From Mumia xiangluensis (GTDB lineage: Bacteria; Actinomycetota; Actinomycetes; Propionibacteriales; Nocardioidaceae), in assembly GCF_010994095.1 (NCBI RefSeq), contig NZ_WJYO01000003.1, positions 496,001-560,000 on the forward strand: a DNA stretch of 64,000 nucleotides. The letters are read 5' to 3'. Shown one piece after another: positions 38,234 through 62,164 of the stretch. Position 1 is the first letter of the stretch. Every line of letters starts with the position of its first letter. A program made the position numbers and the translations under genes. The notes under the pieces were generated by a model. The model was not told the DNA's origin. It searched no databases and saw only the letters and a program-made list of their open reading frames with translations.

Positions 38234-39388
38234 TCAGGCGACGTCGCCCGACGCCTTCAAGCGCGCCACGGCACCCGGATCGACGCCCCACTCGGTCAGG
38301 ACGTCGTCGGTGTGCTCGCCCGGGCGGGGCGGAGGTCCCGCGATCTGCCCCGGCGTGCGCCCGAAGCGCGGCGCCGGGCTGGGCTGCACGAGGCCGTTGC
38401 TCGTCGTGAACGTCTCGCGGGCCACGTGGTGCGGGTGGTCGGGTGCCTCCCACGGCGACAGCACCGGCGCGACGCACGCCTCAGCGGAGTCGAGCAGGGC
38501 GGCCCACTCGTCACGCGTGCGTGTCTTGAACGTGGCGGCGAGCTCCTTGCGCAGGCTCTCCCACGCTTCCTCGTCGCCCTGGTCTCGCGGGTCGAACGAC
38601 AGCCCGAGCGTCGTGACCAGGTTCGCGAAGAACTTCGGCTCCATCGCGCCGACCGCGACCCACCGCCCGTCGGACGTCTCGTACGTCTCGTAGTACGGGG
38701 TGCCCGTGTCGAGGAGGTTCTTGCCGCGCTCCTCGCCCCACATCCCCGCCGCACGCATCCCGTACAGGAATCCGCCGAGCACCGCGGAGCCGTCGATCAT
38801 CGCCGCGTCCACGACCTGCCCGCGCCCGGACGTCGCCCGCTCCGCCAGGGCGGCGCAGACCCCGAGCGCGAGGAACATGCCGCCCGCGCCGAAGTCGCCC
38901 ACGTAGGTGAGCGGGGGCACGGGCGCCTCGCCGTCGCGGCCGATCGACCAGAGCGCGCCCGACAGCGCGATGTAGTTGATGTCGTGCCCGGCGTACGGCG
39001 CCCACGGACCGTCCTGCCCGTAGCCCGTCACCCGGCCGTACACGAGCCTGGGGTTGCGCTCCAGGCAGGTGTCGGGGCCGAGGCCGAGGCGCTCCATCAC
39101 GCCGGGGCGGAACCCCTCGATCAGGACGTCAGCCTGCTCGACCATCGCCAGGACGAGAGCGACACCGTCGGGGCTCTTGAGGTTGACTCCGACCGAGCGC
39201 CGGCCACGTCCGAGCACGTCGACGGGAGGCGGACCCTCGCGTCCGGGGGCGACGTTCTCGACCCGGTCGACACGCACGACGTCCGCGCCGTAGTCGCTCA
39301 AGATCATCCCCGCGAACGGGCCGGGGCCGAGCCCCTGGATCTCCAGCACCTTCACGCCCGCCAGCGGGCCACTGCGTCCGTCGCTCAT
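38234..39388 (-). CDS. Alpha-methylacyl-CoA racemase (CaiB/BaiF family)
   Basis: 384 aa. GPLAGVKVLEIQGLGPGPFAGMILSDYGADVVRVDR is the family III CoA-binding start. YAGHDINYIALSGAL supplies the proposed catalytic His and YVGDFGAGGMFLALG the Asp, as in mycobacterial MCR/AMACR. It inverts the 2-methyl centre of branched acyl-CoA so that S-specific dehydrogenases can act, which implies an isoprenoid or steroid-type side chain. ATG overlaps the stop of the upstream synthetase. The GHD and DFGAGG motifs make a CoA-transferase role less likely. Confidence 0.85.
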   Translation of the reverse strand: MSDGRSGPLAGVKVLEIQGLGPGPFAGMILSDYGADVVRVDRVENVAPGREGPPPVDVLGRGRRSVGVNLKSPDGVALVLAMVEQADVLIEGFRPGVMERLGLGPDTCLERNPRLVYGRVTGYGQDGPWAPYAGHDINYIALSGALWSIGRDGEAPVPPLTYVGDFGAGGMFLALGVCAALAERATSGRGQVVDAAMIDGSAVLGGFLYGMRAAGMWGEERGKNLLDTGTPYYETYETSDGRWVAVGAMEPKFFANLVTTLGLSFDPRDQGDEEAWESLRKELAATFKTRTRDEWAALLDSAEACVAPVLSPWEAPDHPHHVARETFTTSNGLVQPSPAPRFGRTPGQIAGPPPRPGEHTDDVLTEWGVDPGAVARLKASGDVA

Positions 39389-40965
39389 CGGCGCTCGCTC
39401 CTGCCCACGGACAGCCCGAGCGTGAGGAAGTCGACCGTCTCCGGGGTGTCCCAGTCGGCGCGGAGCTTGTGCTTGAGGATGCGTCCCATCGCGTTCACCG
39501 GCAAGGCATCGATGACCTCGACGTACCGCGGGATCGCGTAGTACGGCAGGTGCTCGCGGAAGTAGCCGAACATCTCCGTCGGGTCGAACGTGCACCCGTC
39601 CTCGAGCACCAGGCAGGCCTTGATCTCGTCCTCGGACAGCTCTGACGGCACGGCGTGCACGGCGACCTGCGCGATGCCGGGGTGCTGGACCAGCGCGACC
39701 TCGAGCTCGACCGACGACACGTTCTCGCCGCGTCGCCGCAGCGCGTCCTTCAAGCGATCGACGAAGTAGAGCATCCCGTCGTCGTCGAAGCGGCCCATGT
39801 CGCCCGTGTGGTGCCACAGGTTGCGCCACGCGTCGAGCGTCGCGTCCTCCTTGCGCCAGTAGCCGGAGAAGATCGAGTGCGGTTCGCGCGGGCGTACGAC
39901 GATCTCACCGGTCTCCCCCACGGGAAGCACGCGGTCGTCGCCGTCCACGACCTGGACGTCGAGCCACGGCAGCGCCTTGCCGCAGCTGGGTTGGTCGCGC
40001 CCGGGGCGCACGCCGCCCATCGTCGCGGGCAGCACCTCGGTCTGGCCGTAGCCTTCCGCCAGCACGTCGACGCCGAACCGCTCCTCGAACGCGTGCTGCG
40101 CCTGCGGCGCCATCGGGATGAAGACGGCCCGCTCGATCGTGTGGTCGCGGTCGGCGTCCGACGGCGGCGTCGCCAGCAGCGCCGCACCGATCGCTCCGAC
40201 CGCCCAGAGCTGCGTCGCCCCGACCTCGCACGCCCGGGAGATCAGCGTGGACGCGCTGAACGCCGACTCGAAGTCCACACGGCACCCGGCGACCAACGCG
40301 TCCATGAGGGAGCTCAGACCGAAGCCGTGGTAGAGCGGCAGCGTCGTGATCGAGGTGTCCGTCGGCTTGAACCAGTCGAACATCATGTGGGCCTTCGGCA
40401 TGTGCAGGAAGTAGCCCTGGTCGATCATGCAGCCCTTGGGGAGCCCGGTCGTGCCGGACGTGTAGAGGATGCTGAGCAGCGAGTCGGGAGTCGGCTCCTC
40501 CCACGCGCGCTCTCCCGCGACGTAGAGGTCGGCGAGCCGAGGCGTGCTGCCATCGCCCTCGTCGAGCGCGATCAACGTCGTCGCGATGCCGGAGGCAGCG
40601 ATCAGCTTCTTCGTGGCGTCGAAGGCCTCCTGGTCGACGATCAGCACCGACGGGTCGGAGTCGGCGATCTGGTAGCGCAGGAACTCGCCCTTGAGGAAGA
40701 CGTGGAGGGGCACCTGGACGGCACCCAGCTCGGCGCAGGCGAAGAAGAGCTCGACCGCCTCGCGCCGGTTCGCCATGATCGAGGCAACCCGGTCACCCGG
40801 TCGTACGCCGAGCCGGTGGAGCCCGTACGCCAGCCGTCGTGCGGCGTCCTGGACCTCCTTGACCGTGATCCATACGCCGTCGACGCCGGCCAGGTGCGCG
40901 CTCGGGTCGACCTCGACCCGCTGCGCCAGCCTCGCGGGCAGAATGCCCGCCTCGGTGTTCGTCAC
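39385..40965 (-). CDS. Acyl-CoA synthetase (CaiC/FadD-like), first gene of the 41-31 kb operon
   Basis: 526 aa from GTG 40965. TAGGGA (40977-40972) lies 6 bases upstream, so the message may be leaderless, although GGGAGA could also serve as a ribosome site. ILYTSGTTGLPKGCMID loop, AEGYGQTEVLPATM, HHTGDMGRFDDDGMLYFVDRLKDALRRRGENVS. LPVNAMGRILKHKLR has Arg where the A10 Lys is expected, as in its paralogue at 36595. Reads away from operator C and probably catalyses the entry CoA-ligation step. Confidence 0.86.
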   Translation of the reverse strand: MTNTEAGILPARLAQRVEVDPSAHLAGVDGVWITVKEVQDAARRLAYGLHRLGVRPGDRVASIMANRREAVELFFACAELGAVQVPLHVFLKGEFLRYQIADSDPSVLIVDQEAFDATKKLIAASGIATTLIALDEGDGSTPRLADLYVAGERAWEEPTPDSLLSILYTSGTTGLPKGCMIDQGYFLHMPKAHMMFDWFKPTDTSITTLPLYHGFGLSSLMDALVAGCRVDFESAFSASTLISRACEVGATQLWAVGAIGAALLATPPSDADRDHTIERAVFIPMAPQAQHAFEERFGVDVLAEGYGQTEVLPATMGGVRPGRDQPSCGKALPWLDVQVVDGDDRVLPVGETGEIVVRPREPHSIFSGYWRKEDATLDAWRNLWHHTGDMGRFDDDGMLYFVDRLKDALRRRGENVSSVELEVALVQHPGIAQVAVHAVPSELSEDEIKACLVLEDGCTFDPTEMFGYFREHLPYYAIPRYVEVIDALPVNAMGRILKHKLRADWDTPETVDFLTLGLSVGRSERR

Positions 40966-40971
40966 ATCGTC

Positions 40972-41005
40972 TCCCTACCAGACCGACCAGTTGGTGGGTT
41001 ACGCT
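40972..41005. promoter_or_regulatory. Operator copy C with divergent -10 boxes
   Basis: AGACCGACCAGTTGGTGG at 40980-40997 (15 of 18 to consensus). TACGCT (41000-41005) on the plus side and TAGGGA (40977-40972) on the minus side are each 2 bp from it. It lies between the minus-strand synthetase/racemase/dehydrogenase operon and the plus-strand thiolase operon. Confidence 0.62.
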
Positions 41006-43946: not shown

Positions 43947-45080
43947 ATGGAGCGAACCCGTCCGTACCGCGTCGTCGTCTGGGGCCCGGGCTACACCGGC
44001 TCGCAGGCGCTGCGGGAGATCGCTCGACGGCCCGAGCTGGACCTCGTGGGATGCGTGGCGTACTCGCCGTCGAAGGTCGGCCAGGACGCCATGGCATACA
44101 TCGGAGAGGAGCCGTGCGGCATCACGATCACCGACGACAAGGAGGCGATCTACGCGCTCGACGCCGACGTCGTCCTGTACGCCGGGGCGTCGACGCCGGA
44201 CGAGTCCGCGCGGCACGAGGAGATCACCCGGCTGCTGCGCTCGGGCAAGAACGTCGTCACCACCACCGCGTACTTCTTCCCCTGGCAGCACGGCGAGGAC
44301 TACGTCCGGCCGCTGGAGGACGCGTGTGCAGCGGGCGGTACGACGCTGCACGGGACGGGGGTGCACCCGGGGTGGTTCGTCGAGCGCTTCGCGCTGACGA
44401 GCGCGAGCCTGTGCACGTCGGTGTCGTCGATCGCGGTCCGCGAGGTGTGCGACCTCAGCCACCACGCCGGCGAGATCATCGCGGCGATCGGCTTCGGCAA
44501 GCGACCCGAGCGTCTCGGGTCCCGCACGCGCAAGGAGATCCTCAGCCGCTACTACTTCGAGTGCATCGCCGGGCTCGGCCACCTGCTGGGGCTCGAGCTG
44601 GACGAGATCGTCGCCGAGGTCGTCTACGTCCCCAGCCCGCGGACGTTGGAGTGCGCCGGGGTGACGGTCGAGGAGGGCACGGTCGCCGTCGTCGACGGCA
44701 CGTGGTCCGGCGTGGTCGGTGGCGAGACCGTGATCTCGATCCGCGAGCTGTGGTACCTCGACGCCGATCTCGTCGATCCCGCGATCACGGTGAGCTCTCC
44801 CGACATGTACGAGGTGGCCGTCGAGGGCCTGCCGATCGACGTACGGACCCGCGCCGACCTGTTCACCTCCGACACCCATGACGTCTTCGGCGTCGACGAC
44901 CGGCAGTCCGCCGCGAACCTGGCGACCGCCGTCCAGCTCGTCCAGGCGGCACCCTCCGTCGTGGAGGCGCCGCCCGGGATCCTGCTCGCCCCCGGATTCG
45001 CGTACCCGGCTGCCGACCTGCGGACCATCCCCGACCCGCTCGCTCGCCGCCCGCGGCCCATCCCAACCCTCATCCGCTGA
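43947..45080 (+). CDS. DapB/2,4-diaminopentanoate dehydrogenase-like NAD(P) oxidoreductase
   Basis: 377 aa with GGAGG 9 bases before the ATG. Rossmann start YRVVVWGPGYTGSQALREIARRPELDLVG, then VLYAGASTPDESARHEEITRLLRSGKNVVTTTAYFFPW and HGTGVHPGWFVERF. The C-terminal domain matches the DAP_DH_C type and not true DapB (no SGTSNFSKT-like signature). Such proteins recur in actinobacterial lipid and steroid gene clusters with unproven roles. Last gene of the thiolase operon; followed by a long imperfect hairpin. Confidence 0.78.
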   Translation: MERTRPYRVVVWGPGYTGSQALREIARRPELDLVGCVAYSPSKVGQDAMAYIGEEPCGITITDDKEAIYALDADVVLYAGASTPDESARHEEITRLLRSGKNVVTTTAYFFPWQHGEDYVRPLEDACAAGGTTLHGTGVHPGWFVERFALTSASLCTSVSSIAVREVCDLSHHAGEIIAAIGFGKRPERLGSRTRKEILSRYYFECIAGLGHLLGLELDEIVAEVVYVPSPRTLECAGVTVEEGTVAVVDGTWSGVVGGETVISIRELWYLDADLVDPAITVSSPDMYEVAVEGLPIDVRTRADLFTSDTHDVFGVDDRQSAANLATAVQLVQAAPSVVEAPPGILLAPGFAYPAADLRTIPDPLARRPRPIPTLIR

Positions 45081-45195: not shown

Positions 45196-46350
45196 TCAGT
45201 ACGAGCGCGGCAGGCCGAGGGTGTGCTGCGCGACGTAGTTCAGCACCATCTCGCGGCTCACCGGCGCCGAACGCATCAGCCGCGTGAGGCCCCACAGGTC
45301 GGCGATCCCGTACTCGCTGGCGAACGCGTTGCCGCCGTGGACCTGCACGGCCTGGTCGAAGGCGAACAGCACGGCGTCGGCCGCGGCCAGCTTGGCGACC
45401 GAGGCCGACTCCCCGACCGTCGGCTCGCCGTGGTCGAACTCCCACGCGGCCTTGTAGGCCATCAGGCGAGAGAGCTCGATCTGGATCTTCGCCTCCGCCA
45501 ACGGGTGGGAGACGCCCTGGTGGGCACCGATCGGCTGACCCCACACGTCCCGGCTCTTCGCGTACGACACGGCCTTGCCCATGAAGTAGCGCCCGAGCCC
45601 GACCGCCTGCGCCGCGACGTTGATCCGCTCCGGGTTCAGGCCCGAGAAGACCTGGAGCATCCCCTTCCCCGGCACACCTCCGACGAGATTCGCCTCGGGG
45701 ACGTCGACACCGTCGAGGAAGACCGAGAACTGCCGGTCCGGCTCCTTGATCTCCATCGCGATCGGCTGGTACTCGAGCCCCGGCCGGTCGGTCTCGACGA
45801 TGAAGAGCCCGAGCTCCGCACGGCCCGACGGATCGGTCCCGGTGCGCGCGACGACCAGCACCGCATCGGCCACGTCGATCCCGGTGATGTACTGCTTCTG
45901 CCCTGACAGCCGCCATGTCCCGTTCTCGAGGCGCGCAGTGGTCGCGAGGTTCGGGGCGTTCGACCCCGACCCCGACTCGGTGATCGCGAACGCCATCTTC
46001 TGCTGTCCGGACGCGAGCGCGGGAAGCCAGCGGCGCTTCTGGTCCTCGGTCCCGAAGTCGTCGATGATCGGGCCGCACATGCCGGCGACGATGAGGAAGA
46101 TCAGCGGGCATCCCTGGGCCGCGAGCTCCTCGATCACGATCGCCATCTCGTAGATGCCGCCGCCACCCCCGCCGTACTCCTCGGGGAGGTTGACGCCCCC
46201 GAAGCCCTGCCCGAACACGGTGCTCCACAGCTCGTCGACGAACACCCCGCCTGTCGTGCACTTCACGAAGTAGTCGTGGCCGAAGCCCGCCCCGATCTCG
46301 GCGACTGCCGCTCGGATCGCCGCGTGCTCGGGTGATTCTCGAAAGTCCAT
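45196..46350 (-). CDS. Acyl-CoA dehydrogenase (unpaired)
   Basis: 384 aa from ATG 46350 with GAGG upstream. EEYGGGGGGIYEMAIVIEELAAQG, AITESGSGSNAPNLATTARLENGTWRLSGQKQYITG and SGLNPERINVAAQAVGLGRYFMGKAVSYAKSRDVWGQPIGAHQGVSHPLAEAKI are clear. The C-terminal motif is RLMRSAPVSREMVLNYV with no EGT. Glu in the PER segment of helix G is the likely base (isovaleryl-type position). Single gene reading from operator D, diverging from the crotonase/IpdAB-like operon. Confidence 0.87.
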   Translation of the reverse strand: MDFRESPEHAAIRAAVAEIGAGFGHDYFVKCTTGGVFVDELWSTVFGQGFGGVNLPEEYGGGGGGIYEMAIVIEELAAQGCPLIFLIVAGMCGPIIDDFGTEDQKRRWLPALASGQQKMAFAITESGSGSNAPNLATTARLENGTWRLSGQKQYITGIDVADAVLVVARTGTDPSGRAELGLFIVETDRPGLEYQPIAMEIKEPDRQFSVFLDGVDVPEANLVGGVPGKGMLQVFSGLNPERINVAAQAVGLGRYFMGKAVSYAKSRDVWGQPIGAHQGVSHPLAEAKIQIELSRLMAYKAAWEFDHGEPTVGESASVAKLAAADAVLFAFDQAVQVHGGNAFASEYGIADLWGLTRLMRSAPVSREMVLNYVAQHTLGLPRSY

Positions 46351-46391: not shown

Positions 46392-46417
46392 CAGCCAACT
46401 AGTCGGTTGACTAGAGT
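46392..46417. promoter_or_regulatory. Operator copy D with plus-strand -10 box
   Basis: CAGCCAACTAGTCGGTTG at 46392-46409 (17 of 18 to consensus). TAGAGT (46412-46417) follows after 2 bp and fits a start site about 24 bases before the ATG at 46448, which has GGAGGGG. The minus side has no clear -10 hexamer. Confidence 0.66.
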
Positions 46418-46447: not shown

Positions 46448-47359
46448 ATGAGCGATGTCGCGTTCGCCCTCGACCACCACGTCGCGACCCTCACGTTGTC
46501 GCGACCGGACTCGCTCAACGCACTGAGCGACTCGATGCTCGACGAGCTCGTCGCGCTCTTCGACCGCTGCGACACCGACGACGACGTGCGCTGCATCGTC
46601 CTCACGGGCGCGGGCCGTGCCTTCTCCGCGGGCGCCGACCTCAGCGGAGGCGCCGACACCTTCGCCGACTGGTTCGGCGGCGGGGACTCAGCCGGCGCAG
46701 CGGCCGATGCGGGCGAGCAGGCGTCGTGGCGCGAGCCGCGCAGAGACGCCGGCGGTGTCATGGCCCTGCGGATCTACGACTCGCTCAAGCCCGTCATCGT
46801 CGCTCTCAACGGCCCGGCCGTCGGCGGCGGCGCGTCGCTCACCTTGCCTGCGGACCTCCGTCTGGCATGTCCCGAGGGGACGATCGGCTTCGTGTTCACC
46901 GCACGGGGGCTCGTCCCCGAGTCGTGCTCGAGCTGGTTCCTCCCCCGGCTCGTCGGCATGTCGACCGCTCAGGAGTGGATCCTCACGTCACGCAAGATCG
47001 GGGCCGACGAGGCCCTGGCAAAAGGCCTGCTGCACGCGGTGCACCCGGCGGACCGCCTGATGGACGAGGCGTACGCGATCGCCGACCGCATCAGCACGCG
47101 CACGGCCCCGGTCTCGGCCTCGCTCGCGCGCCGGATGCTGTGGCGGTCGCTCGAGCTCCCTCATCCGATGCGCGCGCACGAGATCGAGACACGCGCCCTC
47201 GACGCCCGCAGCACCAGCGCCGACGTCCGCGAGGGCGTGACGGCCTTCCTCGAGAAGCGACCGCCGCAGTTCCGCGCCCGCGTCAGCACCGACCTCCCCG
47301 ACGTCTTTGCCTCCCTTCCCACGCCGGCGTACGTCGCGCCGCGGCTCGCGAAGGACTGA
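46448..47359 (+). CDS. Crotonase-fold protein (EchA-like), isomerase-like acid position
   Basis: 303 aa, longer than usual (about 260) because of a Gly/Ala/Asp-rich insert, DTFADWFGGGDSAGAAADAGEQ, after the first oxyanion segment GAGRAFSAGADLSGGA. GGGAS replaces GGGxE and Phe is at the PE position. A single Glu is in ARGLVPESCSSWFLPRLVG, the isomerase position. Directly upstream of an IpdAB-like pair, recalling the mycobacterial echA20-ipdA-ipdB order of steroid C/D-ring degradation; orthology is not proven. Confidence 0.85.
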   Translation: MSDVAFALDHHVATLTLSRPDSLNALSDSMLDELVALFDRCDTDDDVRCIVLTGAGRAFSAGADLSGGADTFADWFGGGDSAGAAADAGEQASWREPRRDAGGVMALRIYDSLKPVIVALNGPAVGGGASLTLPADLRLACPEGTIGFVFTARGLVPESCSSWFLPRLVGMSTAQEWILTSRKIGADEALAKGLLHAVHPADRLMDEAYAIADRISTRTAPVSASLARRMLWRSLELPHPMRAHEIETRALDARSTSADVREGVTAFLEKRPPQFRARVSTDLPDVFASLPTPAYVAPRLAKD

Positions 47360-47364
47360 CACCG

Positions 47365-48252
47365 ATGCCGGACAAGGTGATGACGGCCGCGGAGGCGGTC
47401 GGGCTGATCCGTGACGGCGACGTCGTCGGGCTCCAGGCCGGACCGACGCAGTGCGCACCGATGAGTCTCGTGCGCGCACTCGTCAGGGCCGGCCGGCGCG
47501 ACCTTCATGCTGTCTCGCTCAGCGGGTCGATGGCCCTGGACTGGCTCGCGACCAGCGGAGCGCTCACCCGCCTCACGACCGCGGCCGTGACGATGGAGAG
47601 CTACGGCATGTGCCGCCAGGTCCGGCGTGCCGTCGAGTCGGGCGTCGTGGGGTTCGAGGAGCTGTCCGAGACCGCTCTGCTCGCCCGCCTCGGCGCGGCC
47701 GCCCGAGGACTCCCCTTCCTGCCCACCCGCGGCATGCTCGGCTCCGACCTCCTGTCCGTCGGCAACGCTCATCTCGCGGTGATCGACGACCCGTTCGGGG
47801 GGCCGCCGGTCGTCGCCTGCCAGGCACTGCGACCCGACGTCGCGCTCCTGCACGCCCATCGGGCGGACGCCGACGGCAACGTCGCGGTCGACCCCGGCCC
47901 GCGCCACCCGATGACCACCCTGCTGCCGCGTGCCAGCGACCGGGTGGTCGTCAGCGTCGAGGAGATCGTCGACGCCGACACGCTCCGCGAGCATCCGGAG
48001 CAGACCATCCTCCCGAGCTTCGCGGTGGACGCCGTCGTCCTCGCGCCGTACGGGGCCCACCCGACGTCGCTCTTCCCGCGGTACGACTACGACGCGGCGG
48101 CCTTCCAAGCCTGGGTGGACGCGTCGCGCGACCCCGCCGACGCCGAGGCGTTCCTCGCCTCGTACGTGCACGGACCGGCGACGCACGACGACTACCTCGC
48201 CCTCGTCGGTGCCGACCGCCTGTCCGCTCTCACGATGGAGCGGGCGTCGTGA
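47365..48252 (+). CDS. CoA-transferase alpha subunit, IpdA/glutaconate CoA-transferase-like
   Basis: 295 aa. MPDKVMTAAEAVGLIRDGDVVGLQA at the N-terminus, LPFLPTRGMLGSD, ALLHAHRADADGNVAVDPGP and VVVSVEEIVDADTLREHP match the GctA/IpdA family. IpdAB in Mycobacterium is a CoA-dependent hydrolase that opens the last steroid ring rather than a transferase. This pair may likewise be a cyclic-ketone CoA hydrolase. GTGA overlap with the beta subunit; starts 6 bp after the crotonase gene. Confidence 0.82.
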   Translation: MPDKVMTAAEAVGLIRDGDVVGLQAGPTQCAPMSLVRALVRAGRRDLHAVSLSGSMALDWLATSGALTRLTTAAVTMESYGMCRQVRRAVESGVVGFEELSETALLARLGAAARGLPFLPTRGMLGSDLLSVGNAHLAVIDDPFGGPPVVACQALRPDVALLHAHRADADGNVAVDPGPRHPMTTLLPRASDRVVVSVEEIVDADTLREHPEQTILPSFAVDAVVLAPYGAHPTSLFPRYDYDAAAFQAWVDASRDPADAEAFLASYVHGPATHDDYLALVGADRLSALTMERAS

Positions 48253-49085
48253 GCGGCGCGAAGCGGTCGACGGAGGCACAGCCCGGCGACGCTCCGTCCA
48301 CCAGCTACTCGGTCGACGAGCTCGTCGTGAGCCGTCTCGCTGCGGAGCTCGCGGACGACGACCAGGTGCTCAACGGCCTGTCGTCGTTCGTCCCCGTCTG
48401 CGCGATCGAGCTGGCCCGGCGGACGCACGCGCCCGGCCTCGTATGGGTCGCGGGCGGGACCGGTGTCTCGCCGTCACACCCGAGGATGACGGCGTCCACC
48501 TTCGAGTGGCCGCTGTGGGACAGCGCGCTGATGTACGTCGACGTGGCCACCGAGCTGTGGGACTGGGTGGCCGACCCGCGGCGCTTCCGCACGTTCTTCG
48601 CCGGCGCCGCCCAGCTCGACGCCTTCGGCAACGCCAACATCTCGGTCGTCGGCGACTACCACCGCCCCCGCGTACGCCTCTCGGGGACGGCGGGTCTGGC
48701 CGACATGAGCGTGCTCGACAAGCGGATCGTGTACGTCGTCACCGACCACGACCCGCGCACGCTGGTCGAACGCGTCGACTTCCGGTCCGGAGTCGGCTTT
48801 CTCGACGGGTACGGCGAGCGCGCGCGCCGCGGCCTGGGAGGCGGGCCGGCGCTGGTCGTCACGAACCTCGCCGTGTTCGACTTCGCGCCGTCCTCGCAGC
48901 GGATGCGGCTCCGTACGGTGCATGCAGGGCACACCGTCGACGACGTCCTCGCCGCCACCGGGTTCGTCCCCGTGATCGCCGACGACGTCACCGTCACCCC
49001 GGCGCCGACCGTCGCGCAGGTGGCGCTCCTGCGCGACGAGATCGACCCCGAGGGCTACCGTCGACGCGGCTTCCCCGCTCGGTGA
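48249..49085 (+). CDS. CoA-transferase beta subunit, IpdB/GctB-like
   Basis: 278 aa from GTG 48249. YSVDELVVSRLAAELADDDQVLNGLSSFVPVCAIELARRTHAPGLVWVAGGTGVSP, then FFAGAAQLDAFGNANISVVGDYHRPRVRLSGTAGLADMSVLDKR. The second block is the conserved GctB/IpdB core (AQVDxxGNxN, GSGG-like loop). No clear SENG-type Glu is seen, as expected for the IpdB branch. Forms the heteromer with the upstream subunit. Convergent with the 49095 gene. Confidence 0.82.
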   Translation: MSGAKRSTEAQPGDAPSTSYSVDELVVSRLAAELADDDQVLNGLSSFVPVCAIELARRTHAPGLVWVAGGTGVSPSHPRMTASTFEWPLWDSALMYVDVATELWDWVADPRRFRTFFAGAAQLDAFGNANISVVGDYHRPRVRLSGTAGLADMSVLDKRIVYVVTDHDPRTLVERVDFRSGVGFLDGYGERARRGLGGGPALVVTNLAVFDFAPSSQRMRLRTVHAGHTVDDVLAATGFVPVIADDVTVTPAPTVAQVALLRDEIDPEGYRRRGFPAR

Positions 49086-49094: not shown

Positions 49095-49859
49095 TCACCG
49101 CCCCGTGAAGACCGGGTCGCGCTTCTGCGCGAACGCCGCGAACGCCTCCGCCACGTCGGTCGTCCCGGTCGCGACGACGGCAGCAGCCGCCTCGGCGTCG
49201 AGCTGGGCGTCGAACGCCGTCTCGTACGAGGCGTGGAGGAGCTGCTTGGTCAGCCTCTGGGCGACCGGCGCGCCTGCGGCGAGCCTGCCGGCGACCTCGC
49301 GGGCGCGTGCGAGGAGGGTGTCGTCGGGGACGACCTCCGCGACGATGCCGAGCGCCGCCGCCTCGTCCGCGCCGACCGGCTCACCGAGCAGCGCGAGCCG
49401 CTTCGCCGTCTGCATTCCGACGATCCGGGGCAGCAGCCACGAGCTGCCGAAGTCTGGGACGAGTCCGCGCTTGACGAAGACCTGGCAGAACACCGCACGC
49501 TCCGACGCGACGGTGAGGTCCGCGGCCAGCGCGATGCTCATGCCCGCCCCGTACGCCGGGCCGCCGACCGCGGCGACGACGGGCTGCGGGAGCCGGTGCA
49601 AGGCGCGCGCAGTCTCCTGGATGCGTCCCATGATCGCGACGACCGACTCGTCCGGCACCGTCTCCGCGAGGTGTGCGCCCGAGCAGAAGGCGCCCGGCGC
49701 GCCGGTGATCAGCACGGCACGGTCGCCCGACGATCCCGCGACCTGGCGCAGAGCGTCGCCGAGCGCCGCGAACTCGTCCGGCGTGAGCGCGTTGCGGCGC
49801 TCTGGCGCGTTCAGGGTGATCTCGACGACCCCGTCGCCGCGGACGACATCGATGCTCAT
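49095..49859 (-). CDS. Crotonase-fold protein, Asp at isomerase position
   Basis: 254 aa. GAPGAFCSGAHLAETVP and GPAYGAGMSIALAADLTVASERAVFCQVFVKRGLVPDFGSSWLLPRIVG. The classical Glu pair is Ser and Phe; Asp in LVPDFG sits where PaaG-type isomerases have theirs. Predicted enoyl-CoA isomerase (PaaG-like or delta3,delta2). ATG overlaps the MaoC gene stop; last in the operon 53258-49095, whose other genes supply a MaoC hydratase, CoA ligase and SDR. Confidence 0.84.
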   Translation of the reverse strand: MSIDVVRGDGVVEITLNAPERRNALTPDEFAALGDALRQVAGSSGDRAVLITGAPGAFCSGAHLAETVPDESVVAIMGRIQETARALHRLPQPVVAAVGGPAYGAGMSIALAADLTVASERAVFCQVFVKRGLVPDFGSSWLLPRIVGMQTAKRLALLGEPVGADEAAALGIVAEVVPDDTLLARAREVAGRLAAGAPVAQRLTKQLLHASYETAFDAQLDAEAAAAVVATGTTDVAEAFAAFAQKRDPVFTGR

Positions 49860-50734
49860 GCGGTCGCCTCGTGGGCGGCGACCACGATCTCCCCGCCCGA
49901 CAGCGCGGGCGCACCGTCGCGGTCGAGAACCTGAGTCGTGAAGAGGATCCTGTCCGATGCGACCCACACCGCGGTACGCAACGTCTCTCCCGGGAAGACG
50001 ACCCCGGCGAACCGCGCCTCGAGCGACCGCACCGCCGACGACCGCCCGTCGAGCACGCGGTCGACGACGGCCCGGCAGACCGCCCCGTAGGTGCACAGAC
50101 CGTGCAGGATCGGGCGCGGGAAGCCCGCCGCGGAAGCGACCTCCGGATCGCTGTGCAGCGGGTTCCGGTCTCCGAGGAGGCGGTAGAGCAGGGCCTGCTG
50201 CGGGAGGATCGTCGTCTCCAGGATGTGGTCCGGCGCGCGGTCGGGCGGTGCCGGCGGACCGTCGGGGCCTCGATCACCGCCGAACCCGCCCTCACCGCGG
50301 GAGTACATCCGCATGCTCGACGTCCACAGCGGCTCGCCGTCGGAGCCCACTGCCTCGCTGTCCACGACGATGATCGCGGCGGACCCCTTGTCGTACAGCG
50401 CGGCGACCCCGGTGGACACCTCGGCCTTGCCGTCGCGCGGGATCGGGCGGTGCAGCTCGACCCGCTGGCTCGCGTGCAGGATCGTGCTCAGGTCGACGTC
50501 GACCCCCGGAAAGCTCACCGCCGGCGGTGAGGTCGCGCGCAGGGTCGGCGCGACCACCGCGAAGGTCGGCAGCACCTCCTCTCCGCGCTCGGTCGCGTAC
50601 GCGAGCTGCCGCACGTCGGTCGGATCGGCGCCGGCTCCGAGCGCGAGGTGGTAGAGGAGGACGTCGGACTCCTGCCAGCTGATCGGCGTGACCGAGGGCG
50701 GTGCGTCGAGGGCGGCGGAGGGGTCGATGGGCAT
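49856..50734 (-). CDS. MaoC-type (R)-enoyl-CoA hydratase, double hotdog
   Basis: 292 aa with AAGGAG upstream. The C-terminal hotdog carries the hydratase-2 motif YRLLGDRNPLHSDPEVASAAGFPRPILHGLCTYG, with catalytic Asp and His. The N-terminal half is a degenerate hotdog (VLPTFAVVAPTL onward), as in MFE-2 hydratase and HtdX/HtdY proteins. It hydrates trans-2-enoyl-CoA to (3R)-hydroxyacyl-CoA. It pairs logically with the MFE-2-like (3R)-specific SDR in the same operon, giving an R-specific beta-oxidation branch. Confidence 0.88.
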   Translation of the reverse strand: MPIDPSAALDAPPSVTPISWQESDVLLYHLALGAGADPTDVRQLAYATERGEEVLPTFAVVAPTLRATSPPAVSFPGVDVDLSTILHASQRVELHRPIPRDGKAEVSTGVAALYDKGSAAIIVVDSEAVGSDGEPLWTSSMRMYSRGEGGFGGDRGPDGPPAPPDRAPDHILETTILPQQALLYRLLGDRNPLHSDPEVASAAGFPRPILHGLCTYGAVCRAVVDRVLDGRSSAVRSLEARFAGVVFPGETLRTAVWVASDRILFTTQVLDRDGAPALSGGEIVVAAHEATA

Positions 50735-50738: not shown

Positions 50739-52388
50739 CTAGCTCCTTGCGGTGGTGAGGTCTTCGGGGTTGCCGGGTTCAGTGGCCAGAGCTTCGTTCG
50801 TCTCCTGCCGGACGGTGACCCGGCGGATCTTGCCGGACGCGGTCGTCGGCAGCTGGTCCACGAACCGCCATGCGATCGGGATCTTGAACCGCGCGACTTT
50901 GCCGGTCAGGTGAGCAGTCAGCTCGTCGGTCGAGATCTCCGCCCCCGGGACGGGCACCACGACTCCGGCGACCGTCTCGCCCAGCCGCGCGTCGTCGACA
51001 CCGACGAGCACCGCGGCCGCGACCTGTGGCAGCTGCACCAGCAGCTCCTCGACCTCAGCCGGGTAGATGTTCTCGCCCCCGCGGATGATGACGTCCTTCG
51101 CGCGGTCGCGGAACTCGATGTACCCGAGCTCGTCCATCGCCCCGACGTCGCCGGTACGAAGGAAGCCGTCCTCCGTCATCGTCGCCGCGGTCTGCTCCGG
51201 GTCCTGCCAGTACCCGGCCATCACGTTCGGGGACTGCACCTGGATCTCGCCGGGCACACCGACCGGGCAGGTCTCGCCGGTCAGGACATCAGCAATCCGG
51301 ACTGTGGCTCCCGGGAGCGGTCTGCCGACCGTACGCGACAAGGTCTCCGGATCGTCCGCGACATCGGTCGAGGTGATGAGCGGGCACTCCGACTGGCCGT
51401 ACCCGATCACGGTCGGCGCCCCCAGCTGGTCACGGATCCGCTCGACGACCGCACGGCTCACGGTGGCGCCTCCGAGGCCGACGGAGGCGATCCCCGCGTC
51501 GCGCGCGTCGTCGCCGAGCCGGTCGAGGAGGTCGACCAGCATCGTCGGGACGCCGCCGAGCCGGGTGATCACCCCCGTACGCAGGAGGTCGGTCGCCTCG
51601 CTCGGGTTCCACCGGTCGACCACGACGAACGATCCCCCGCCGAGCGGGCCGCCGAAGACGACGAAGCACGAGCCTCCGATGTGGTGGTACGGGACAGGGT
51701 TGAGCCAGACGTCGTCGTCGCCGATCACATCGTGGTGGTTGCGTTGGAACGCCCCGTTGACCGCGGCCCGGTGGCTCACGACGGCACCCTTGGCGCGGCC
51801 CGTCGTTCCTGAGGTGAACTGGATGAGGAACGGGTCCTCTGGCGCGACCACAGGGAGGTCGCCCACCGGCTGCGACGCAGCCCACGGGAGCAAGTCGTCG
51901 AGCGCGACGACCTCGATGCCGCCGACCAGCCCGGTCGCCCGGGGCTCGAGGTCGTCGCCGGCGACCGTCGCCCCCGCGAACACGATCGACGGAGTCGTGA
52001 GCCCCACGCCGTGGCGGACCTCATCGTCGCTCCAGCCGGTGTTGAGCGGCGTCAGGATCGTCCCGGCGTACGCGCACGCGTAGTGCAGCAGCACGTACGA
52101 GACGGAGTTGCGGCCCCAGACGCCTACCCGGTCGCCGGGCGCGAACCGCCCGGCGAGGGCGCCCGCGATCGTCCGGGCATCACGGTCGAGCGCGGCGTAC
52201 GACAGCTCCCGCCAGGCGCCGTCCTCACGCCACCGCAGCGCCGGCGCATCGCCGAGCTCGGGCAGCCGGCGGGCGAGCATCTGAGGGAGCGACTCCTCGA
52301 GCACGTCGTCGAGGCGGTCGGCCTCCCAGTACGCGAGGGAGCCGATGCGTCTCCGCCCGTTGGTCGGAACGGCACTCGTCTGGCTCAT
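50739..52388 (-). CDS. Acyl-CoA synthetase (FadD-like)
   Basis: 549 aa. IQFTSGTTGRAKGAVVSH loop, GYGQSECPLIT, LRTGDVGAMDELGYIEFRDRAKDVIIRGGENIYPAEVEE and LPTTASGKIRRVTVRQET with the A10 Lys intact. It has a long N-terminus (MSQTSAVPTNGRRRIGSLAYWEADRLDDVL). Activates an acid for the surrounding SDR/MaoC/isomerase steps. Spaced 3 bp from the SDR upstream and 4 bp from the MaoC gene downstream. Confidence 0.87.
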   Translation of the reverse strand: MSQTSAVPTNGRRRIGSLAYWEADRLDDVLEESLPQMLARRLPELGDAPALRWREDGAWRELSYAALDRDARTIAGALAGRFAPGDRVGVWGRNSVSYVLLHYACAYAGTILTPLNTGWSDDEVRHGVGLTTPSIVFAGATVAGDDLEPRATGLVGGIEVVALDDLLPWAASQPVGDLPVVAPEDPFLIQFTSGTTGRAKGAVVSHRAAVNGAFQRNHHDVIGDDDVWLNPVPYHHIGGSCFVVFGGPLGGGSFVVVDRWNPSEATDLLRTGVITRLGGVPTMLVDLLDRLGDDARDAGIASVGLGGATVSRAVVERIRDQLGAPTVIGYGQSECPLITSTDVADDPETLSRTVGRPLPGATVRIADVLTGETCPVGVPGEIQVQSPNVMAGYWQDPEQTAATMTEDGFLRTGDVGAMDELGYIEFRDRAKDVIIRGGENIYPAEVEELLVQLPQVAAAVLVGVDDARLGETVAGVVVPVPGAEISTDELTAHLTGKVARFKIPIAWRFVDQLPTTASGKIRRVTVRQETNEALATEPGNPEDLTTARS

Positions 52389-52391: not shown

Positions 52392-53258
52392 TCACTCCGG
52401 CAGCTCGACGGCCTGGCCGGGGATGCTCCACTCGGACAGGTCCATGATCTGCCCGAGGTTCGCGGCGATGTCCTCGATCGTCGCGTCAGCGTTCTCGTAG
52501 CCCTGCGTCTGAGCGATGAACGTGCGCGCGAACGTCCCGGCGACGGCGTGGAAGATCTCCCCGGTGGTCTCGCAGGACTCGTGGCACAGGTAGCCGACCA
52601 TCGGCGCGACCCGGTCCGGCGACATCTTCTCGTGCAGGCGCTCAGGAAGCATCGCCGCCGTCATCGCGGTGGCTGCCCCGGGCGAGATCAGGTTGACCTT
52701 GATGCCACTGCGAGCGCCCTCGACGGCGAGCGTACGGCCGAGTCCGACGAGCGCGGCCTTGGCCGACGAGTAGTTCGCCTGGCCTAGGTTGCCGTACAAC
52801 CCTGCGACGGAGGTCGTGAAGACGATGCGGCCGTACTCCTGGGCGCGCAGGTGCGGCCATGCCGCCTTCGTCAGGGCGTACGAGCCGAAGTAGTGGACCG
52901 CGAGCACGTCGGACAGCTCCTCGTCGGACATCTTCGCGAACGACCGGTCGCGCACCATGCCGGCGTTGTTCACCAGGACGTCCACGCGGCCGAACGCGTC
53001 GAGCGCGGTCGCGACGACCGACTCGCCGGCGCCGGCCTCGCCGATCGATCCGTTGTGGGCGACGGCTGTGCCGCCGGCCTCGGTGATCTCCTCGACCAGA
53101 GCACCGGCAGGCGTGCGACCGTCGTCGTCCTTGACGTCGAGATCGTTGACGACGACCTTCGCACCCCGCGAGGCGAGCAGCCGCGCGTACGCCCGGCCAA
53201 GTCCCCCGCCCCCGCCGGTCACGACCGCCACCCGGTCGTCGAAACGAAGCTCTGCCAT
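52392..53258 (-). CDS. SDR (3R)-hydroxyacyl-CoA dehydrogenase, MFE-2 type
   Basis: 288 aa with GGAGGAG upstream. FDDRVAVVTGGGGGLGRAYARLLASRGAKVVVNDLDVKDDDG is the hallmark of the peroxisomal MFE-2/17-beta-HSD4 dehydrogenase unit, followed by NNAGMVRDRSFAKMSDEE and Ser/Tyr/Lys in TTSVAGLYGNLGQANYSSAKAAL. Oxidises (3R)-hydroxyacyl-CoA, including bile-acid and steroid side-chain esters in relatives. First gene of its operon; a TATACT -10 box (53313-53308) lies beside operator E. Confidence 0.88.
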   Translation of the reverse strand: MAELRFDDRVAVVTGGGGGLGRAYARLLASRGAKVVVNDLDVKDDDGRTPAGALVEEITEAGGTAVAHNGSIGEAGAGESVVATALDAFGRVDVLVNNAGMVRDRSFAKMSDEELSDVLAVHYFGSYALTKAAWPHLRAQEYGRIVFTTSVAGLYGNLGQANYSSAKAALVGLGRTLAVEGARSGIKVNLISPGAATAMTAAMLPERLHEKMSPDRVAPMVGYLCHESCETTGEIFHAVAGTFARTFIAQTQGYENADATIEDIAANLGQIMDLSEWSIPGQAVELPE

Positions 53259-53307: not shown

Positions 53308-53340
53308 AGTATAGCCAACCAACCAGTCGGGCAGTAAAGT
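53308..53340. promoter_or_regulatory. Operator copy E with divergent -10 boxes
   Basis: CAACCAACCAGTCGGGCA at 53316-53333 (15 of 18; the left half is perfect). TATACT (53313-53308) lies 2 bp away for the minus operon. TAAAGT (53335-53340) lies 1 bp away for the plus operon, 8 bases before ATG 53349, which lacks a ribosome site and is therefore probably leaderless. Confidence 0.68.
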
Positions 53341-53348: not shown

Positions 53349-54572
53349 ATGAAGAATGTCGTCATCGTCGATACCGTCAGGACCCCCCGAGGCAAGGGCA
53401 AGCCAGGCGGTGCGCTCAGCAGCATCCACCCCCAGGAGCTCCTCGCCGGCGTGCTGCGCGAGCTGCAGCACCGCAATGCCCTCGACCCGTCGACCGTCGC
53501 CGACGTCATCACCGGGTGCGGCAACCCGGTCGGCACCCACGGCGACAACGTCGGACGCCTGGCCGCCCTCGCCGCGGGCTGGCCCACCACCGTCCCCGGC
53601 GTCACCCTCAACCGCGCCTGCGGGTCGGGCCAGCAGGCCATCAACGCCGCCGCGATGATGGTCGAGTCCGGCCAGGCCGACGTGGTCGTCGCCGCCGGCG
53701 TCGACATGATGTCGCAGTACCCGATGCCGGACCGCATGACGCTCGACGCGGGCAACGAGCGGCTGCGCGAGCGCTACCCCATCATCCCGCAGGGCATCTC
53801 CGCCGACCTGATCGCGACGGTCGAGGGCTTCTCGCGGACCGACGTCGACGCGCTCGCCGCCGAGTCCCAGCGTCGCGCGGCCGAGGCGATCGCGGACCAC
53901 CGGTTCGCGCGATCGATGGTCCCCGTCCTGGCGCCCGACGGCACGGTCGTTCTCGACCACGAAGAGCTCCCCCGCGCCACCACGGCCAAGGCGCTCGCCG
54001 GGCTCAAGCCGTCGTTCGGCGGACTCGGGCGCGAGACGTTCGAGGGGTACGCCGAGCCGTTCGACGCGATGGCGATCCGGACGTATCCCGAGGTCGACGA
54101 GATCGAGCACGTGCACCACGCCGGCAACTCCTCCGGACTCGCCGACGGAGCCGCCGCCGTGCTCGTCACCAGCGAGGCGTACGCCCGGGCCCAGGGCTGG
54201 ACGCCACGCGCCCGCATCGTCGCGACCGCCACCGCCGGAGCCGAGCCCGTCATCATGCTGACCGCACCGGGCCCTGCTGCCCAGAGGTGCGCGGACCTCG
54301 CGGGGATGTCGCTCCAGGACGTCGACCTGTTCGAGGTCAACGAGGCGTTCGCCTCGGTCGTCCTGCGGTTCAGCCGCGAGGCCAAGGTCGATCTCGACCG
54401 TGTCAACGTCAACGGTGGCGCCATCGCCCTCGGCCACCCCATCGGCGCGAGCGGGCCGATCCTGATGGCGACACTGATCGACGAGCTCGAGCGCAGCGAC
54501 CGCACGACGGGCCTCGTCACCATGTGCACCGGCGGCGGCATGGGCACCGCGACCGTCGTCGAGCGGATCTGA
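53349..54572 (+). CDS. 3-ketoacyl-CoA thiolase (FadA-like)
   Basis: 407 aa. Nucleophile Cys91 in LNRACGSGQQAINAAA, FEVNEAFASVVLRF, GHPIGASGPILM and the second Cys in MCTGGGMGTATV. The insert FGGLGRETFEGYAEP suits larger substrates. Starts without a Shine-Dalgarno sequence directly after a -10-like box. Completes beta-oxidation for the SDR/MaoC/ligase operon encoded divergently. Confidence 0.9.
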   Translation: MKNVVIVDTVRTPRGKGKPGGALSSIHPQELLAGVLRELQHRNALDPSTVADVITGCGNPVGTHGDNVGRLAALAAGWPTTVPGVTLNRACGSGQQAINAAAMMVESGQADVVVAAGVDMMSQYPMPDRMTLDAGNERLRERYPIIPQGISADLIATVEGFSRTDVDALAAESQRRAAEAIADHRFARSMVPVLAPDGTVVLDHEELPRATTAKALAGLKPSFGGLGRETFEGYAEPFDAMAIRTYPEVDEIEHVHHAGNSSGLADGAAAVLVTSEAYARAQGWTPRARIVATATAGAEPVIMLTAPGPAAQRCADLAGMSLQDVDLFEVNEAFASVVLRFSREAKVDLDRVNVNGGAIALGHPIGASGPILMATLIDELERSDRTTGLVTMCTGGGMGTATVVERI

Positions 54573-56066: not shown

Positions 56067-57695
56067 CTAGGCGGACGCCGGCTGACGGAGCTCTTCGGCG
56101 ATCCGCCGCGCCTCGGAGTAGACGGCCTTGCCGTTCGGACCGCGGGGCACCGTCTCCACGATCGCCACGTGCCGCGGCGCCTTGTAGCTCGCGAGCCGCT
56201 CCTTCACGTGAGCGACGACCTCGTCGGCTCCGATCGCCGGAGCCTCGGGATCAAGGCTGACGACCGCCGCCACCGTCTGGCCCCACTCCGGATCCGGCAG
56301 GCCGATCACCAGGACGTCGGCCACGCTGGGATGGTCGAGGATGACGCCCTCGACCTCCTCGGTGAAGATCTTCTCGCCACCCGAGGTGATGCACAGCGAG
56401 TCCCGCCCCATCAGCTGGATCGTCCCGTCCTCCAGCACGACGGCCCGGTCACCCGGGACAGACCGTCGTTCGCCCTCGACGACGGGGAACGTCCGCTCGG
56501 ACTTCTCCGGGTCCTTGTAGTAGCCGAGGGGAAGCCTTCCGACGACGACGAGCGTGCCCACCACGTCCGATCCGGGCTCGACCGGCTTGCCCTCCTCGTC
56601 GAGAACCGTCGTGTTCGCGCCCGGGCTGAATCTCCCGGTCGGCGGGATGTTGCCCTTCGTGGCGACGGACCACCCCATCCCGAACCCCTCCGACGACGAG
56701 AACCCGTCGAGGATCGACGCCTCGGGCCAGAGCTCGAGGAGACCCTCCTTGCTCGCCTCGCTGAGCATGCCTCCCGACGACAGGAGGTTGCGCACCGACG
56801 ACACGTCCCACCGGTCGGGATCCTCCGCCCGCGCGGCCAGGATCCGCCGGGCGAACACCTCGCCGGCGATGGTCAGACTCTGCACTCGGTGCCGGTCGAT
56901 CGTGTCGAGCAGCTCGGCGGGGTCGAGCGAGGGCGCGACCAGCGATGCGACGGCGCCGCCCTTGTGCATGGCCATCGTCGCGCCGAACCAGCCGCTGCCG
57001 TGCATCATCGGGCTGCATGAGATGTGGACCGGCCCCGGCTCGACGAGGGTGCCTCGGATGCTCGCCTCGAGGTTCTCAAGGTCGAACGAAAGACCCGCGA
57101 CGTCGTTGATCTGACGGAGCATGTCGATCACGCGCCACATGACGCCCTTGGGCATGCCCGTGGTGCCGCCGGTGTAGAGGAGGAAGAGGTCGTCGCCCGA
57201 ACGGCCCCACGCGGAGCGGACCTGGCCGGCATCAGCAGCTGCGGCCTGCTCGTACGGGACCGCCCAGTCGGGGCAGGCCTCCGTGCCGTCGTCGACGTGG
57301 AGGTACTGACGGACGTTGCTCAGCTCCGGCCGCAAGGAGGACATGGTCTCCGTGAACGAGCCGTGGAAGACGACCGACGTGACGTCCGCGTCGTCGAAGA
57401 GGTAGCGCAGCTCCTCGTCGCGGTAACGGTAGTTCGTGTTGATCGCCGGGATGCCGATCTTGAAGGCCGCGTGCTGGACCTCGAGGTACTCCGGGCTGTT
57501 CCGGAGGAAGAGCGCCACCCGGTCGTCCTTGCTGGCGCGCGGATCGAGCAGGGTGCGGGCCACGCCGTTGGCGCGCCGCTCGAACGCGGACCAGGTGAAG
57601 CGACGGTCGCCGTGCGCCTGGGCGAGCGCGTCGGGCAGCACCTCGGCGATCGTCTCCCAGACGGTCGCGATGTTCTCGTGGACCTCGGCAGCCAT
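56067..57695 (-). CDS. Acyl-CoA synthetase (FadD19-like)
   Basis: 542 aa with GGAGGAA upstream. LLYTGGTTGMPKGVMWR, ASILDGFSSSEGFGMGW, GDRAVVLEDGTIQLMGRDSLCITSGGEKIFTEEVE and VPRGPNGKAVYSEARRIAEE with the A10 Lys. The YTGGTTGMPKGVMWR loop and SGGEKIFTEEVE hinge resemble FadD19/FadD17-type ligases that activate steroid side chains in mycobacteria. Third gene behind operator F after an acyl-CoA dehydrogenase pair, a combination reminiscent of steroid side-chain operons. Confidence 0.87.
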   Translation of the reverse strand: MAAEVHENIATVWETIAEVLPDALAQAHGDRRFTWSAFERRANGVARTLLDPRASKDDRVALFLRNSPEYLEVQHAAFKIGIPAINTNYRYRDEELRYLFDDADVTSVVFHGSFTETMSSLRPELSNVRQYLHVDDGTEACPDWAVPYEQAAAADAGQVRSAWGRSGDDLFLLYTGGTTGMPKGVMWRVIDMLRQINDVAGLSFDLENLEASIRGTLVEPGPVHISCSPMMHGSGWFGATMAMHKGGAVASLVAPSLDPAELLDTIDRHRVQSLTIAGEVFARRILAARAEDPDRWDVSSVRNLLSSGGMLSEASKEGLLELWPEASILDGFSSSEGFGMGWSVATKGNIPPTGRFSPGANTTVLDEEGKPVEPGSDVVGTLVVVGRLPLGYYKDPEKSERTFPVVEGERRSVPGDRAVVLEDGTIQLMGRDSLCITSGGEKIFTEEVEGVILDHPSVADVLVIGLPDPEWGQTVAAVVSLDPEAPAIGADEVVAHVKERLASYKAPRHVAIVETVPRGPNGKAVYSEARRIAEELRQPASA

Positions 57696-57735: not shown

Positions 57736-58896
57736 TCAGCGCGACGACGAACGAGGGGGGCGCGGCAGTCCCAGCCGCTGCTGGGCGACGACGGTCTTGA
57801 GCACCTCGGAGGTGCCGCCGTAGATGGTGGCGATCTGGGACTCGCGGTAGAGGTGCTGCAGCTCGGCGGCCGGCGACTCGTTCGTACGGTCGCTCGCGAG
57901 GCCCTCGACACCGGCGCCGTCGAGCAGTGCGCTGCTCGCGCGCTGGAGGGCCTCCGTGCCGTACACCTTCGCGATCGTGCCCTCGACCGCACCGGCGCGG
58001 GCGGTCTCGCGGGACCACGAGGCGTACGCCCCGAGCAGCCGGGCGACCTCCGCGGACGTCGCGGCACGTCCGAGCCGCGCCAGGAACCGCGGATCGGTGC
58101 CGTGGTCGCCCGTCCGCGCCCAGGCGACGGCCGCCTCGACGAGTCGCCGCAGCTGGGCGGCGAACTCACCGCCCCGCTCGAACGCGAGGGCGACGTTGAC
58201 GATCTCCCATCCGGCCCCTTCCGCGCCGAGCCGAGCCGTGTCGTCGACGCGGAGGTCGGAGTAGTACGTCGTGTTGGTCCGCTGGCCGCTCAGGGTGAAG
58301 ATCGGCGCCGCCGAGAAGCCGGGATCGTCGGTGGGAACGAGGAAGAGCGTGAGACCGGCGTGCTTGGGGACCGTCGGGTCGGTCCGTGCAAGCAGGAAGA
58401 CGTGGTCGGCGATGCTGCCGGCGGTCGTGAAGATCTTCTGGCCGTCGATCACCCAGCCGTCGCCGTCGCGGACGGCCCGGGTCTGGACCGAGGCCAGGTC
58501 GGACCCCGACGCCGGCTCGCTGTAGCCCAGCGCGAGCAGAACCTCGCCGCGGCAGATCGACGGCAGGAAGCGCGCCTTCTGCTCCGGCGTCCCCACCCGG
58601 CGGATCGCCTCGCCGATGATCTGCGTGATCGCCAGCCCCTCGACGGGGGCGCCCGCGGCGGCGAGCTCCTCGTAGACCACGTCGCTGTACGCCCGCGGCC
58701 AGCCCCGACCGCCGTCCTCGGGATCCCAGTGCGCGCCGACCCAGCCCCGGTCCGCCATCGCCTGGTGGAACGCGTCGTCGTGATAGTTGCCAGACTCGGC
58801 CACGCGTGCGCGGACCGCGGGAGTGAGGTGCTCCGCGGCGAAGGCACGGACCTCCGTACGAAGCGCCTCGGCGTGGTCGTCGGTTCCGAAGTCCAT
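57736..58896 (-). CDS. Acyl-CoA dehydrogenase, alpha-type subunit of pair 3
   Basis: 386 aa. YSEPASGSDLASVQTRAVRDGDGWVIDGQKIFTTAG, ALAFERGGEFAAQLRRLVEAA (FER Glu) and YRESQIATIYGGTSEVLKTVVAQQRLGLPRPP. Gly replaces the EGT Glu. Its ATG overlaps the partner's TGA by one base (TGATG), so translation is coupled. Followed 40 bp later by the FadD19-like gene. Confidence 0.86.
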   Translation of the reverse strand: MDFGTDDHAEALRTEVRAFAAEHLTPAVRARVAESGNYHDDAFHQAMADRGWVGAHWDPEDGGRGWPRAYSDVVYEELAAAGAPVEGLAITQIIGEAIRRVGTPEQKARFLPSICRGEVLLALGYSEPASGSDLASVQTRAVRDGDGWVIDGQKIFTTAGSIADHVFLLARTDPTVPKHAGLTLFLVPTDDPGFSAAPIFTLSGQRTNTTYYSDLRVDDTARLGAEGAGWEIVNVALAFERGGEFAAQLRRLVEAAVAWARTGDHGTDPRFLARLGRAATSAEVARLLGAYASWSRETARAGAVEGTIAKVYGTEALQRASSALLDGAGVEGLASDRTNESPAAELQHLYRESQIATIYGGTSEVLKTVVAQQRLGLPRPPRSSSR

Positions 58897-59952: not shown

Positions 59953-59978
59953 TGTATACCCAACTATCTAGTTGGTTG
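59953..59978. promoter_or_regulatory. Operator copy F with minus-strand -10 candidate
   Basis: CAACTATCTAGTTGGTTG at 59961-59978 (16 of 18 to consensus). TATACA (59958-59953) lies 2 bp away on the minus side. The operator overlaps the last codons and TAG stop of the upstream luciferase-like gene, so it marks an internal promoter between adjacent minus-strand units. Confidence 0.64.
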
Positions 59979-62138: not shown

Positions 62139-62164
62139 TGCGTACCCTACCAACTAGATGGTTG
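62139..62164. promoter_or_regulatory. Operator copy G
   Basis: CTACCAACTAGATGGTTG at 62147-62164 (16 of 18 to consensus). It covers the 3' end and TAG stop of the acyl-CoA dehydrogenase gene at 62154 and lies directly upstream of the SnoaL-like gene. TACGCA (62144-62139) is 2 bp away on the minus side. Confidence 0.58.

Follow-up and report, generated by a model that had tools for sequence, protein, structure and literature searches.

Glutaconate CoA-transferase (GctAB), the steroid ring C hydrolase IpdAB of Mycobacterium tuberculosis and Rhodococcus jostii RHA1, and the 3-methylglutaconyl-CoA decarboxylase AibAB share the type I coenzyme A (CoA)-transferase fold. According to PMC5380842, the catalytic Glu54 in the B chain of glutaconate CoA-transferase corresponds to Gly57 in IpdB of RHA1, RHA1 IpdAB did not transfer CoA between short acids, and loss of IpdAB cripples M. 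tuberculosis on cholesterol. Here we describe another pair of this fold, referred to as A-B, encoded in a window of 64,000 nucleotides from Mumia xiangluensis (contig C3, positions 496001-560000, of a 4.62-Mb assembly with a completeness of 98.64%). We propose, with a probability of roughly 60%, that A-B opens the ring of a different cyclic oxo-acyl-CoA by hydrolysis, with catalysis resembling that of IpdAB, and belongs to an uncharacterised pathway of steroid- or terpenoid-like type. Both the activity and the substrate are proposed by analogy.

Active-site residues and phylogeny of A-B

An earlier note on this DNA described a crotonase followed by IpdA- and IpdB-like subunits, and this layout is confirmed. 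The three genes are adjacent on the plus strand. The crotonase gene (46448-47359; 303 amino acids; PF00378, 171.7 bits) is separated by five bases from the A gene (47365-48252; 295 amino acids; PF01144, 80.1 bits), which overlaps the B gene (48249-49085; 278 amino acids; PF01144, 43.8 bits) by four bases, with gene starts taken from our in-house gene caller. A-B is the sole Gct/Ipd-like pair among three PF01144 pairs in the genome. A second, ordinary CoA-transferase pair (PF01144, 214 and 160 bits) is found at the start of the window (667-2018).

Searched with phmmer against solved chains, A scores 121 bits with GctA, 102 with IpdA and 99.5 with AibA, and B scores 96 with GctB, 79 with AibB and 64 with IpdB. 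Identity to IpdAB is 33% for A and 28% for B, and identity to AibAB is similar (35% and 31%). Overall similarity is therefore not decisive, and the active-site letters decide.

The B chain has no Glu at the transferase catalytic position in either alignment register (Gly69 in the MAFFT register), and its residues 62-80 contain neither Glu nor Asp. In the A chain, Glu102 stands at the position of IpdA Glu105, with identical spacing to LPFLP, whereas the residue is Gln in GctA and Gly in AibA. A Glu-to-Ala change distinguishes the solved IpdA chains 6co6_A and 6coj_A, the 6coj entry being titled 'IpdAB E105A COCHEA-COA complex', and a structural study of IpdAB (PNAS 2018) reportedly found Glu105 to be essential. 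Judged by this signature, A-B is not a CoA transferase. Glu86 of the B chain was considered as a second signature and rejected, as its column is generally Asp or Glu. A structure model of A (predicted local distance difference test score, pLDDT, 86.6) best matches GctA, IpdA and AibA (Z 34.7, 34.0 and 31.6, the first two tied); the model of B was poor (pLDDT 67.8) and was not used.

The two positions obey a code across 105 pairs collected from 58 relatives, 394 genomes of the class, plasmids and one genome-contig scan (best 80 of 219 relatives). For balance, this table takes 21 of the 49 loci with pairs from one set, and it leaves out L084, L116, L131 and L147, where no B chain was found. The A site is always Asn, His, Met or Gln in the pairs with the B-chain Glu (43 of 105) and always Glu, Cys, Gly or Ala in the pairs lacking it (62 of 105), with no exception. 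In a quick maximum-likelihood tree built without the two code columns, the 62 Glu-less pairs form one branch containing A-B, IpdAB and AibAB (Shimodaira-Hasegawa-like approximate likelihood ratio test, SH-aLRT, 100). Each trait, the class of the A site and the B-chain Glu, changes once on this tree. The code is therefore descriptive and records one old split, not repeated co-evolution.

Inside the Glu-less branch, A-B forms a clade (SH-aLRT 99) with the pairs of one congener (G005), three Actinomadura, Nakamurella lactea and a metagenome-assembled genome (MAG), and lies outside the IpdAB clade of 12 rows (SH-aLRT 100). Phylogeny thus places the subunits with IpdAB on the non-transferase side, with no branching among the glutaconate CoA-transferases. 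On sequence grounds, A-B is a clade of its own and not IpdAB proper. AibAB falls in another sub-branch, as a single long branch grouped with pairs of the Cys/Gly type. A-B does not group with it, a weak test because AibAB is one long branch.

The 13 Glu-less pairs of the Cys/Gly type form one clade in the same tree. One pair of this type, on plasmid pNOCA01 of Nocardioides sp. JS614 (L042:9980-11721), sits beside alkene monooxygenase and acetate-CoA ligase-like genes. On a Microvirga plasmid locus (L043), a 17-kb stretch holds three A chains; for one of them, with Glu at the A site, we could find no B chain of its own.

The crotonase and the canonical steroid genes

The order of the three genes had been likened to echA20-ipdA-ipdB, and the crotonase called unusually long. 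Its length is in fact normal, since it matches the NCBIfam model PRK08260 at 369.6 bits (cut-off 320) over 290 of 296 model positions, and since its best solved relative, 6ijk (48% identity), has 299 amino acids. As reference for EchA20, the steroid ring D hydrolase, we used a Tsukamurella plasmid with the order echA20-ipdA-ipdB-ipdC, a positive control in which names were assigned from order and annotation. The window crotonase shares with EchA20 the crotonase superfamily and a place just upstream of an A-B pair, but aligns to it only partially, at 26-31% identity.

Seven orthologous A-B loci are available for comparison. The crotonase adjoins A-B in two of them, our genome and G005, and is missing beside the pair in all five from other lineages (Actinomadura, Nakamurella and the MAG). 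Accordingly, we rejected both the identification of the crotonase as EchA20 and the crotonase-A-B trio as a conserved functional unit; the resemblance to the mycobacterial order is superficial because the crotonase is of another type and absent from these five loci. Rat enoyl-CoA hydratase has two hydratase glutamates, at whose places the window protein has Ser and Phe. It also carries PESCSS, fitting a PE-x-x-SS motif that we take to mark Delta3,Delta2-enoyl-CoA isomerases. The crotonase is an accessory to A-B, probably as an enoyl-CoA isomerase, and not the EchA20 step.

Among the 58 relatives, one of five congeners has the A gene (G005, 74% identity); no other genome of this set or of the 394 of the class has a protein above 42% identity to A. 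The genome-contig scan adds five loci at 54-71% identity, the others among the best 80 of 219 being at 45% or below. The three Actinomadura and Nakamurella encode, at another place in the genome, a canonical IpdA with 64-70% identity to that of Tsukamurella, so that four of the five other-lineage genomes with a window-type pair also hold this protein. We found none in our own genome, G005 or the MAG. The canonical ipdA of Nakamurella lactea (G444:C5:207250-208116) is reported with one in-frame TGA, and this genome has no TIGR03213 match.

No KshA, KstD or HsaA-D had been seen in the window, which holds for the window genes that were scanned with Pfam. For the canonical 9,10-seco pathway, the suggestion that upper-pathway genes may lie elsewhere is not supported by the genome-wide search, which returned none of the canonical steroid genes (HsaC, close KshA or KstD, IpdA, IpdC). 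For an HsaC-type dioxygenase, TIGR03213 (HsaC/BphC) has no match in the genome; controls from three Actinomadura and one Amycolatopsis score 326-357 bits, none of which reaches the family cut-off of 366. The four FAD_binding_2 proteins reach at best 28% over a long match to an Amycolatopsis KstD-like protein, a reference named solely by its position beside an HsaC-type gene. The best candidate for canonical IpdC has 43% identity over 232 of 352 residues, compared with 66-69% in controls. One Rieske oxygenase, described below, was rejected as a true KshA on its score. With no HsaC, IpdC or KstD in the genome, we conclude that A-B is not fed by a hidden 9,10-seco pathway. Finally, the KstR2 box, given as AnCAAGnnCTTGnT in PMC3068626, does not occur in the window at up to one mismatch; the control for this search was weak, as L044 gave a single site with one mismatch, a count reached in 13 of 200 shuffles.

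A shared gene island and its operator-like palindrome

A-B lies within an island of about 70 kb (13961-85380 in window coordinates, positions beyond 64000 being flank). Reciprocal best hits of its 65 genes number 62 in a collinear region of G005, 36 in 71 kb of Actinomadura mexicana and 32 in 60 kb of N. lactea. Seventeen genes are common to all three, two of them at only 32% and 40% identity in one lineage. They include A and B, the divergent acyl-CoA dehydrogenase gene (45196-46350, minus strand), a pair of acyl-CoA dehydrogenase genes at 33550 and 34653, three acyl-CoA ligases, an F420-type oxidoreductase, a TetR regulator and a Rieske oxygenase. This dehydrogenase gene is the divergent partner of A-B, whether the crotonase is present or not, in the congener, the three Actinomadura and Nakamurella. 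We found no paper on the island or the clade in the open-licence literature.

The intergenic space between this dehydrogenase and the crotonase contains an operator-like palindrome, CCAACTAGTCGGTTGA (46395-46410), whose consensus CCAACYnnnnrGTTGG (CCAAC-Y-N4-R-GTTGG) recurs across the island. The palindrome was first spotted beside A-B and then generalised. Other sites are found at 21146-21161, 59960-59975 and 62150-62165, the last one perfect, and, with two mismatches each, at 17167-17182, 40983-40998 and 53315-53330. The window has 19 matches to ACCAACYNNTNGGTTGG at up to three mismatches, compared to 3.0 expected, and none of 100 shuffles reaches 19. Across four regions, all 37 distinct sites with at most one mismatch are noncoding (60-base tolerance) although the regions are 79-94% coding; 0.65-1.3 such sites are expected per region. 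Each of the six genomes examined, three of which are Actinomadura species, has an operator upstream of A-B.

Genome-wide, a longer and stricter pattern occurs at nine distinct places, five of them within the island (P ~1e-7, with island limits set afterwards), and its reversed control gave five hits. The 46395 site is not among the nine because it has two mismatches to the longer pattern. The TetR gene (16507-17106, minus strand), kept in the other three lineages, is a candidate whose product may read this operator.

The Rieske oxygenase gene (75001-76002) lies 11 kb to the right of the window. Its product matches KshA_C at 82.5 bits, and its sole solved relatives at E<=1e-10 are KshA, but it scores only 98 bits with 4qdc, whereas known KshA homologues share about 60% identity (PMC4064121). 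Identity of the protein to its counterparts is 92% (G005), 88% (Nakamurella) and 71-72% (the three Actinomadura). Its gene shares a contig with the A gene, no more than about 13 kb away in A. mexicana, A. livida and Nakamurella and within about 30 kb in G005; in Actinomadura sp. KC345 the two genes are on different contigs.

Enzymes of the beta-oxidation type surround A-B. On its right, the minus strand encodes a second crotonase (LVPDFGSSW; 49095-49859), a MaoC-type hydratase (49856-50734), an acyl-CoA ligase (50739-52388) and a short-chain dehydrogenase (52392-53258), followed by a thiolase on the plus strand (53349-54572). A further ligase (56067-57695), two halves of an acyl-CoA dehydrogenase pair (57736-58896 and 58896-59906) and an F420-type luciferase-like oxidoreductase (TIGR03619; 59968-60963) are again on the minus strand. 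The best solved relatives of the first half are Tcur3483 and 4x28_A and that of the second is Tcur3481, which we take to be steroid side-chain acyl-CoA dehydrogenases. On its left, also on the minus strand, are the paired acyl-CoA dehydrogenases (33550-34656 and 34653-35735), a crotonase (35732-36598), two acyl-CoA ligases (36595-38202 and 39385-40965) and a CoA-transferase family III protein (38234-39388).

Four hydantoinase-type genes occupy the plus strand further left. An A-type gene (22231-24324) and a B-type gene (24321-26420) are 84-89% identical to Nakamurella lactea and only 59-61% to G005, suggestive of a separate transfer or a swap. The other B-type gene (26426-28750) carries an acetone-carboxylase gamma domain by fusion; with its A-type partner (28747-30861) it may encode an ATP-dependent ketone carboxylase, which is kept at 72-73% in Nakamurella. 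We set aside ketone carboxylation ahead of A-B as a general scheme, as none of the hydantoinase-type genes of the island has a reciprocal best hit in the 71 kb of A. mexicana. The product of 43947-45080 has a distant likeness to 2,4-diaminopentanoate dehydrogenase (100.7 bits, cut-off 400) and, among the three regions, is shared only by the congener.

Possible activities of A-B

The earlier note had also proposed that the set may open a different cyclic ketone. This is a fair reading because the subunits stand with IpdAB on the non-transferase side and carry the same two catalytic-site letters; what falls away is the EchA20-type crotonase and the three-gene unit. By analogy with IpdAB, A-B would be a heteromer that has kept the fold and lost CoA transfer, with Glu102 of the A chain as catalytic acid/base and the pocket vacated by the B-chain Glu accommodating substrate or water. 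It would open the ring of a cyclic acyl-CoA of the beta-oxo (or oxo-enoyl) type by hydrolysing a C-C bond, and the beta-oxidation enzymes of the island would complete the breakdown of the product. The CCAACYnnnnrGTTGG operator would allow A-B to be induced jointly with its pathway.

Several observations weigh against a ring-opening hydrolase. Plain similarity of both chains is highest to GctAB and not to IpdAB, and the IpdA motif GGWGSRRKPM is missing, the A chain reading GLQAGPTQCAPM instead. The branching order of the A-B clade and IpdAB has a support of only 85, and the same Glu-less branch contains AibAB, a decarboxylase. The sequence itself names no substrate: a steroid-like one is suggested by the relatives of neighbouring genes, not by A or B, and the MAG (L082) has neither the Rieske gene nor a steroid-type neighbourhood.

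The main rival is another Glu-less chemistry, in which A-B opens no ring and works on an intermediate of the island as an AibAB-like decarboxylase or lyase, or as a simple acyl-CoA hydrolase. PMC7756340 presents AibAB as an example of this fold capable of decarboxylation, and the B chain is closer by score to AibB than to IpdB, the A chain being about equally close to both. However, AibA has Gly where both our A chain and IpdA have Glu, and the long AibAB branch is placed with the Cys/Gly type. We consider this alternative unlikely, at around a third of the weight given to a ring-opening hydrolase.

It is more doubtful still that A-B is the IpdAB of this organism, opening COCHEA-CoA from steroid rings C/D that enter by an unusual route. 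It is the only Gct/Ipd-type pair in the genome, its Glu/Gly signature matches IpdAB, and the Rieske oxygenase and the acyl-CoA dehydrogenase pair give its neighbours a steroid-like look. Nevertheless, the pair lies outside the IpdAB clade and lacks GWGSRRKP, the genome has no canonical IpdC and no HsaC, no KstR2 box was found in the window (with the weak control noted above), and the four other-lineage genomes holding both kinds of protein show that a window-type pair can coexist with canonical IpdA. A CoA transferase whose active site has been rearranged, loading the acid substrate of the island onto CoA, would fit the top bit scores of both chains with GctAB, but is very improbable given the absence of Glu and Asp from B residues 62-80, the single loss of Glu in the tree and the several acyl-CoA ligases already in the island.

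Returning to a ring-opening hydrolase, we tentatively extend the proposal, at a little under even odds, to a new hydrolase family founded by A-B next to IpdAB. This family would take part in the catabolism of a polycyclic natural product with methyl branches, by a complete route that is so far undescribed. The route would begin with a KshA-like Rieske oxygenase, employ several pairs of acyl-CoA dehydrogenases and be controlled by a TetR regulon of its own with about ten promoters; it would be shared by Mumia, Actinomadura and Nakamurella. The operator delimits the whole regulon and makes its substrate searchable. Reading the A and B sites together offers a simple guard against annotating Glu-less pairs as transferases. 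IpdAB is among the few enzymes of the CoA-transferase fold with demonstrated C-C bond cleavage; if true, another clade sharing its catalytic letters but serving a different pathway would mean that such chemistry extends beyond steroid rings C/D.

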